NCBI RefSeq assembly: GCF_011058215.1
Contig: NZ_JAALFG010000002.1
Span: 186,001 to 250,000, forward strand
Length of the DNA: 64,000 nt
From: Devosia aurantiaca
GTDB lineage: Bacteria > Pseudomonadota > Alphaproteobacteria > Rhizobiales > Devosiaceae
Reading direction: 5' to 3'
The notes below the pieces were generated by a model that was not told the DNA's origin, searched no databases, and saw only the letters and a list, made by a program, of their open reading frames with translations. Of this stretch, positions 51,295 to 54,977 are shown in pieces; positions within the stretch are counted from its first letter, which is position 1, and each line of letters starts with the position of its first letter. The translations under genes were made by a program, and so were the position numbers.

Positions 51295-54749
<3,455 letters not shown>

Positions 54750-54822
54750 GAAGATCTCCTGATCCGACTCTGTTGGACTGAGCGCGCCGGGTCAAACCGC
54801 GCCGCGATCAATCCACAGACGA

Positions 54823-54921
54823 TCACGCGAGGTGGGTCAGCAGATCCATCCAGGTCAGTGAGCCAATGGTGAAGGCGCTGAGGGTAACGAAGGCGGCAGC
54901 GTCCTTGATGAAATCCAGCAT
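54823..54921 (-). CDS. Candidate SOS-regulated 32-residue membrane micropeptide
   Basis: A 33-codon frame with ATG, GGGAG 6 nt upstream, and TGA stop. The peptide starts MLDFIKDAAAFVTLSAFTIG and ends SLTWMDLLTHLA: a short amphipathic start with one lysine, then one hydrophobic helix of about 17-20 residues, so it is probably a single-pass inner-membrane peptide. Its promoter carries an exact LexA-type box in the -35/-10 spacer. dnaE lies 73 bp downstream on the same strand and could be co-transcribed. No function can be assigned by family. By concept it resembles SOS-induced division inhibitors such as SidA of Caulobacter or TisB-type peptides, without clear sequence similarity. Confidence 0.6.
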   Translation of the reverse strand: MLDFIKDAAAFVTLSAFTIGSLTWMDLLTHLA

Positions 54922-54948
54922 CTTGATCTCCCTTGTTGCTATAATGTT

Positions 54949-54977
54949 CTTATACGTTCCATGTTTGTTCTCGTCCA
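54949..54977 (-). promoter_or_regulatory. Sigma70-type promoter with LexA box in the spacer
   Basis: On the minus strand TGGACG (54972-54977), a spacer of exactly 17 nt, and TATAAG (54949-54954) fit a sigma70 promoter. The spacer contains GAAC-AAACATG-GAAC (54956-54970), i.e. GTTC-N7-GTTC on the other strand, the direct-repeat LexA operator of alphaproteobacteria. The -10 ends 27 bp before the start codon of the micropeptide gene. Confidence 0.7.

Follow-up and report, generated by a model that had tools for sequence, protein, structure and literature searches.

The locus considered here raises a simple question: is the very short reading frame that lies just before dnaE in the 64,000-nt stretch of Devosia aurantiaca DNA that we analysed (hereafter, the window) a true gene and, if so, could it be a relative of the Caulobacter SOS gene sidA? 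The frame occupies positions 54823..54921 of the minus strand and consists of 32 codons, from an ATG at 54921, followed by a TGA ending at 54823. A ribosome-binding site, GGGAG (54932-54928, i.e. 54928..54932, minus strand), stands 6 nt before the ATG. Its 32-residue product, MLDFIKDAAAFVTLSAFTIGSLTWMDLLTHLA, can be described from its genus counterparts, the selection acting on it, its hydrophobicity and a helix model as a candidate SidA-type peptide with one predicted helix. The gene for the DNA polymerase III alpha subunit, dnaE (Pfam; 51295..54749, minus strand), starts with an ATG at 54749, leaving a gap of 73 nt after the peptide stop, and the gyrA region lies upstream of the peptide gene. 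A preliminary description of this DNA had proposed a SidA-like, LexA-controlled membrane micropeptide at this place; the frame with its GGGAG, the TGGACG-17-TATAAG promoter with GAAC-N7-GAAC inside its spacer, and the distance to dnaE were all found as it had given them.

The reading frame is widely kept among relatives. Counterparts of the peptide occur in 74 of the 75 genomes of the genus, counting a copy in genome G031 that is broken by an insertion sequence, and the sole genome without a counterpart (G041) is an assembly of 500 contigs and 85 percent completeness. A family profile built from 15 rows matches 132 of 136 family genomes at E <=1, covering 15 of 16 genera, a count that includes at least one doubtful match (G386, E 0.46). 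Among the 71 genus ORFs of equal length, the first, second and third codon positions are variable at 21, 12 and 30 of the 32 codons, respectively, and dN/dS is ~0.15 for the genus ORFs (393 of 400 sampled pairs usable). Because of this distribution of variability over codon positions and of the dN/dS value, we conclude that the ORF encodes a protein under purifying selection. Searches against Pfam and NCBIfam assigned no family to the window peptide; YmiC, an NCBIfam model for a small membrane protein, gave weak matches to 7 of 15 relatives (best E 0.0043) and left the window peptide unmatched. The insertion in G031, IS3-like by our reading of its frames, splits the peptide gene after codon 7 (L176 1449-2719), is flanked by GAC on both sides and leaves the promoter and box of the gene intact. 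Since the insertion breaks it, the peptide gene is dispensable in this genome.

On the same strand upstream of the frame, a -35-like hexamer TGGACG (54977-54972, i.e. 54972..54977) and a -10-like hexamer TATAAG (54954-54949, i.e. 54949..54954) are separated by a 17-nt spacer, which is filled by a putative LexA operator, O1 (GAACAAACATGGAAC, 54956..54970, minus strand). A strict sigma-70 scan, in which the final base of the -10 has to be T, does not call this promoter. Across 74 genus promoters, 71 located automatically and three by hand, the T, G, A and C of T.GAC in the -35-like hexamer are each conserved in >90 percent, and the positions of the -10-like hexamer all in >60 percent and mostly in >90 percent. 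The first half-site of O1 is GAAC in 73 of the 74, and the second is GAAC in 59, AAAC in 8, GAAT in 4, CAAC in 2 and GTAC in 1; both half-sites are strict in 58 promoters, and in 15 the second half is not GAAC. The region also contains a second, degenerate LexA-like site that was absent from the preliminary description. This site, O2 (GAACATTATAGCAAC, 54935..54949, minus strand), covers the -10 and the start region and consists of a third GAAC (54949-54946) and, 7 nt on, a CAAC (54938-54935). The third half-site is GAAC in 70 of the 74 promoters and the fourth is [CAG]AAC in 67 (CAAC 38, AAAC 28, GAAC 1). The four half-sites lie at 0, 11, 21 and 32 nt from the first GAAC, with spacings of 11, 10 and 11 nt, an arrangement which suggests that the third and fourth could accommodate a further LexA dimer, covering the -10 and the start site. 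GTTCN7GTTC is the published LexA motif of Caulobacter, and a single box is reported at ~97 percent of Caulobacter SOS promoters (PMC12700426), so that a double LexA site would be unusual.

The significance of the box comes from its conservation in relatives and not from its count in the window. The window contains 3 box matches against a computed expectation of 1.95, in line with the roughly two random matches per 64 kb anticipated beforehand, and a count of 3 is attained in 31 of 100 shuffles; in the whole genome there are 96 matches, versus 108 for the reversed pattern. Taken by itself, the box count carries no weight. The 25-nt pattern GAACN7GAACNTATAAGAAC occurs exactly once per genome in 49 of the 75 genus genomes, and its reversed-pattern control has no occurrence in the 75. 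In 48 of these 49 genomes the pattern precedes the peptide match by 23-26 nt, and in G031 it stands before the IS-broken copy. Together with the 58 of 74 strict promoters and the counts for the frame given above, this means that relatives retain both the frame and the box, a point that the preliminary description had left to be established.

The same type of box is found at other genes of the source genome. Boxes of the form GAACA[AT]A-N4-GAAC make up 13 of the 93 recovered genome matches, against 1.3 expected from base composition, in a set that excludes the window's own box. They precede lexA (two boxes), an imuA-like gene, ssb/uvrA, radA, a spore-photoproduct-lyase-like gene, a dnaE2-like fragment and others, several of them genes without a known SOS tie. 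Pfam backs lexA, ssb and a RadA-type zinc ribbon among the boxed genes, and gave no match for the pieces that we take, by reading alone, to be imuA-like and dnaE2-like. The LexA-type control put forward in the preliminary description gains support from this sharing of one box type between the peptide and lexA, ssb/uvrA and other SOS-type genes. Judging from sequence, it is very likely that the ORF is at once a real gene and under LexA control. Boxes of the GAACAAA/GAACATA type lie near a spore-photoproduct-lyase-like radical SAM gene and another radical SAM gene (L099 and L123; names by reading), and near proteins of 145 and 134 residues without known function (L109 and L035). At locus L046 (C1:297581), a LexA-type box stands 20 nt before an apparent dnaE2 start that soon loses frame and that is distinct from the PF07733 gene lying close to the imuA-like gene.

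Within the genus, 71 of 74 loci have a match to the DnaE start pattern downstream of the peptide, with a gap of 7-168 nt (automatic start choice), and in G129, one of the three loci without a pattern match, the DnaE start is still readable in the sequence. Among 20 loci from other genera of the family, 15 show the peptide and dnaE with GAAC boxes upstream, and five are unmatched by the patterns. In the intergenic region (54750-54822 in the window), 56 of 71 genus loci have TGTGGATT or TGTGGAATTC immediately behind the stop codon of the peptide gene, and 29 of 71 have TTTGACC before dnaE; these are possible parts of a separate promoter or control region of dnaE. A simple terminator scan detected none between the peptide gene and dnaE, and Rfam at the gathering threshold returned a single match in the window, a tRNA far from the peptide gene. 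In the present assembly, dnaE is split over two frames at 54567-54585, near a run of A, yielding two DnaE pieces; in G027, whose peptide is identical to the window's, it reads through. dnaE is expected to be essential, and the split is for this reason perhaps a sequencing error. An identity of the downstream gene as the dnaE2 of an imuAB operon was considered and, although Pfam cannot separate the two, rejected, because a second PF07733 gene exists elsewhere (C1:435961-436725, ~3.3 kb from the LexA-type box of the imuA-like gene) and because a search with the DnaE start from the corresponding locus of G027 yields a single match, of 46-50 percent identity and beside sidA, in every one of the 18 Caulobacter and Phenylobacterium genomes.

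Comparable peptides occur beyond the family. Profile A2, which has 23 rows, three of them from Caulobacter or Phenylobacterium, matches 165 of 397 genomes of the order Hyphomicrobiales at E <=0.02, in 56 of 141 genera. We checked 20 of these matches, chosen from 18 families outside the window's own: a strict GAAC-N7-GAAC is present in the 150 nt before the match in 16, a degenerate one in G425 and G193, and no LexA box in G498 and G162. dnaE was recognised downstream in 15 of the 20, and in these other families the DnaE motif can lie as far as 695 nt after the match start. The match in G162, which has no box and no recognised dnaE, looks false; that in G498, which forms the tail of a longer frame ahead of dnaE, is an ambiguous case. 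In family f10 (G498, G329, G508, G360 and G441), the profile matches fall within frames of 109-169 codons, where the peptide may be fused to, or overlap with, another frame.

At the level of the class, a profile search gave matches in 33 of 385 genomes at E <=0.05. A boxed small ORF followed by dnaE is present in 11 of the 28 class loci examined (10 with a strict box by our reading), two others have boxed ORFs without a recognised dnaE, and 15 show neither the boxed ORF nor the dnaE arrangement. A second class sample was anchored on dnaE and comprised 90 regions, the 30 best DnaE matches and 60 regions chosen blind to peptide and box; it omits G532, a known positive. Seven regions, the window's own genome among them, were dropped because the dnaE pattern was unmatched, leaving 83. 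A strict box in coding orientation occurs in 11 of these, against ~0.8 expected at equal base frequencies, and in reverse orientation in 5; a control pattern is found in 2, both orientations included. All 11 boxed regions have a hydrophobic ORF of 24-38 residues between box and dnaE, whereas a hydrophobic small ORF follows 243 of 1660 random positions of those regions (~15 percent) and 2 of 95 boxes of the source genome. Four of the 11 positives (G155, G671, G538 and G592) were previously known from the class profile search. The 72 regions without a strict coding-orientation box count against a universal claim; beyond the order, the locus is real but patchy.

The link to sidA was sought in 18 named genomes, 14 of Caulobacter and 4 of Phenylobacterium, taken from 80 loci, a set of which the C. 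crescentus type strain is not part. In all 18, dnaE was found and is preceded by a 29-codon ORF. The first box is GAAC-N7-GAAT in 16 and GAAC-N7-GAAA in two, and a second site follows 17-18 nt after the first in all 18 (GAAC-N7-GAAC in 5, GAAC-N7-CAAC in 10 and GAAC-N7-GAAA in 3). Four Caulobacter promoters (L334, L339, L342 and L343) have an extra strict GAAC-N7-GAAC, GAACATCTTGTGAAC, which lies 16 nt upstream of where the first box begins, making three sites in a row. The divergent neighbour of the 29-codon ORF, read in four loci, is an inosine-uridine nucleoside hydrolase (IU_nuc_hydro; Pfam, one scanned). In the published accounts, sidA is CCNA_02004 (PMC10769358), CCNA_02005 is a nucleoside hydrolase (PMC3667746), dnaE is CC1926 (PMC1839093) and SidA is an inner-membrane protein of 29 residues that acts on FtsW (PMC4211646). 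Since the nucleoside hydrolase neighbour, dnaE and the locus numbers agree with these four papers, as does the size, we identify the 29-codon ORF as sidA.

Sequence similarity between the window family and SidA is weak and confined to the first 18 residues. A profile of 18 window-family peptides scores seven of eight SidA variants at 8.6-11.5 bits and the eighth at 3.7, against a maximum of 5.2 bits in 2569 small ORFs (loci L250-L347) from which ORFs bearing the SidA core were excluded. The scores of the seven better variants are reached by 2-29 of 16000 shuffles, and that of the eighth by 7 of the 2569 null ORFs and by 549 shuffles. Profile-profile comparison of the window family with SidA gave P 0.00032 over residues 1-18, with a probability of 39 percent. 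A wide profile scores SidA at 22-26 bits, against maxima of 8.5 for the null ORFs and 16.4 for shuffles, a result that is partly circular, some of its rows having been found via A2 with its three Caulobacter/Phenylobacterium sequences, and on which we do not rest the case. Because the same place, size and promoter type add to this thin similarity, we consider orthology of the window peptide with SidA highly probable. The initial idea of a SidA-like, LexA-controlled membrane micropeptide thus appears well founded, given the conserved frame and box and the position of sidA, likewise before dnaE.

For the window peptide, AlphaFold2 predicts one helix spanning residues 2-31 with a mean pLDDT of 94. 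The best 19-residue mean hydrophobicity is 1.39, versus 1.9 in SidA, and the hydrophobic moment is 0.10 (0.08-0.31 across 12 peptides). Because of the low moment and the moderate mean hydrophobicity, the modelled helix would be more like a transmembrane helix than like an amphipathic surface helix, with the window peptide near the lower edge. SidA is reported to bind FtsW and is thought to hold FtsW/FtsI/FtsN inactive (PMC4211646), and AlphaFold3 models by others place it, not with high confidence, at FtsW TM7 (PMC13396833); by analogy, the window peptide may act on FtsW like SidA. We infer LexA binding, induction, membrane insertion, the FtsW target and division arrest, which would follow one another in this way: in an undamaged cell, LexA would sit on O1 in the promoter spacer and block RNA polymerase, and would probably occupy O2, over the -10 and start site, too. 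Upon DNA damage, RecA would trigger LexA cleavage and the promoter would open; derepression would then lead to the synthesis of a 32-residue, single-helix inner-membrane peptide that, presumably through FtsW, would arrest division. Taken as a whole, a LexA-repressed SidA ortholog that delays division via FtsW/FtsI is a likely reading of the ORF.

Other readings of the locus deserve consideration. The box might mainly serve dnaE, supplying extra polymerase in the SOS response, with the peptide as a secondary passenger. For Caulobacter, dnaE is cited as an SOS-regulated gene, and a LexA comparison in alphaproteobacteria recovered it once more (PMC3323433); the lack of a terminator between the two genes in the simple scan would suit such a role. 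However, the peptide is conserved as a protein, the TGTGGATT/TGTGGAATTC motifs found after its stop in 56 of 71 loci could be a separate dnaE signal, and the published Caulobacter dnaE box may simply belong to sidA; we regard this explanation as unlikely. Translation of the ORF could alternatively regulate dnaE in cis, as a leader peptide or uORF whose product has no role in trans. Whereas dnaE is indeed the next gene wherever it is recognised downstream, and the authors of a Sinorhizobium ribosome-profiling study consider a uORF role possible for 5'-UTR sORFs including sORF25, before dnaE1 (PMC10117765), the amino-acid sequence is under strong purifying selection and the gap to dnaE is not fixed, varying over 7-168 nt in 71 of 74 genus loci, with the DnaE motif at up to 695 nt in other families. 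The Caulobacter counterpart, moreover, is reported to work from a plasmid (PMC4211646), and a purely cis-acting role seems to us quite unlikely.

The peptide might also be a membrane toxin of the TisB/DinQ type, which would depolarise the membrane and impose dormancy after damage. LexA-type control, a size of ~30 residues and a hydrophobic helix would all agree with this. Nevertheless, the TisB helix is amphipathic, in contrast with the hydrophobic moment of 0.10 of the window peptide and the range across the 12 peptides, and both position and profile point to SidA, so that a toxin appears very unlikely. A chance ORF beside a chance box is hardly conceivable: the window alone would hold such a box about twice, but frame, residues, box and place are all conserved, and we count this reading as refuted.

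The new element would be the wider point, namely that SidA is a widespread SOS gene linked to dnaE. Among the literature matches listed, none described SidA homologs outside Caulobacter, in a search whose reach excludes most subscription papers and the founding SidA paper as well. A broader and tentative proposal, which could well prove right although we hesitate to favour it, is that sidA-dnaE forms an ancient alphaproteobacterial unit: the inhibitor and its LexA operator would predate the radiation of the class and have been kept before dnaE where retained, the SOS response braking division while read-through supplies polymerase alpha. If true, SidA would be the general alphaproteobacterial counterpart of SulA, overlooked because annotation seldom includes ORFs as short as ~30 codons and because the box had been assigned to dnaE. 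For many genomes of the order, the analysis provides a candidate gene, and the natural sequence variety across relatives indicates which residues of SidA are important. Two published observations can likewise be read in another way: the control of dnaE by the SOS response in Caulobacter (PMC3323433) and the translated sORF before dnaE1 in Sinorhizobium (PMC10117765).

Among known systems, TisB and DinQ of Escherichia coli resemble the window peptide as SOS-controlled membrane peptides of similar size. They differ from it in that TisB is a membrane toxin controlled by antisense RNA, and DinQ is described in the same terms. YneA, SosA, ChiZ and DidA are small membrane proteins reported to block late division after damage (PMC13396833, PMC4211646), but they belong to other lineages or regulators, and YneA and ChiZ carry a LysM domain (PMC13396833). 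In Sinorhizobium meliloti, sORF25 is a translated small ORF in the 5' UTR of dnaE1, for which its authors suggest a possible uORF role (PMC10117765); its position fits that of a window-family peptide before dnaE, and it may be a member of this family. The comparison with SidA (CCNA_02004) reveals both differences and shared features. Identity is low (14-21 percent), and SidA lacks the conserved W-x-D, which in the window's family takes the form W-M-D or the like and lies close to the C terminus. A nucleoside hydrolase lies upstream of sidA and the gyrA region upstream of the window peptide; the first box is strict in 58 of 74 genus promoters but ends in a GAAT or GAAA half-site in Caulobacter and Phenylobacterium, and the tandem sites are spaced by 21 nt in the window's family and by 17-18 nt at sidA. 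Despite these differences, the two peptides are close in size (32 and 29 residues), each would form a single hydrophobic helix, they share the start pattern [KR][DE]xxA[LF]x[ST]xxxF, and both are encoded directly before dnaE, behind a LexA-type promoter with two tandem sites.
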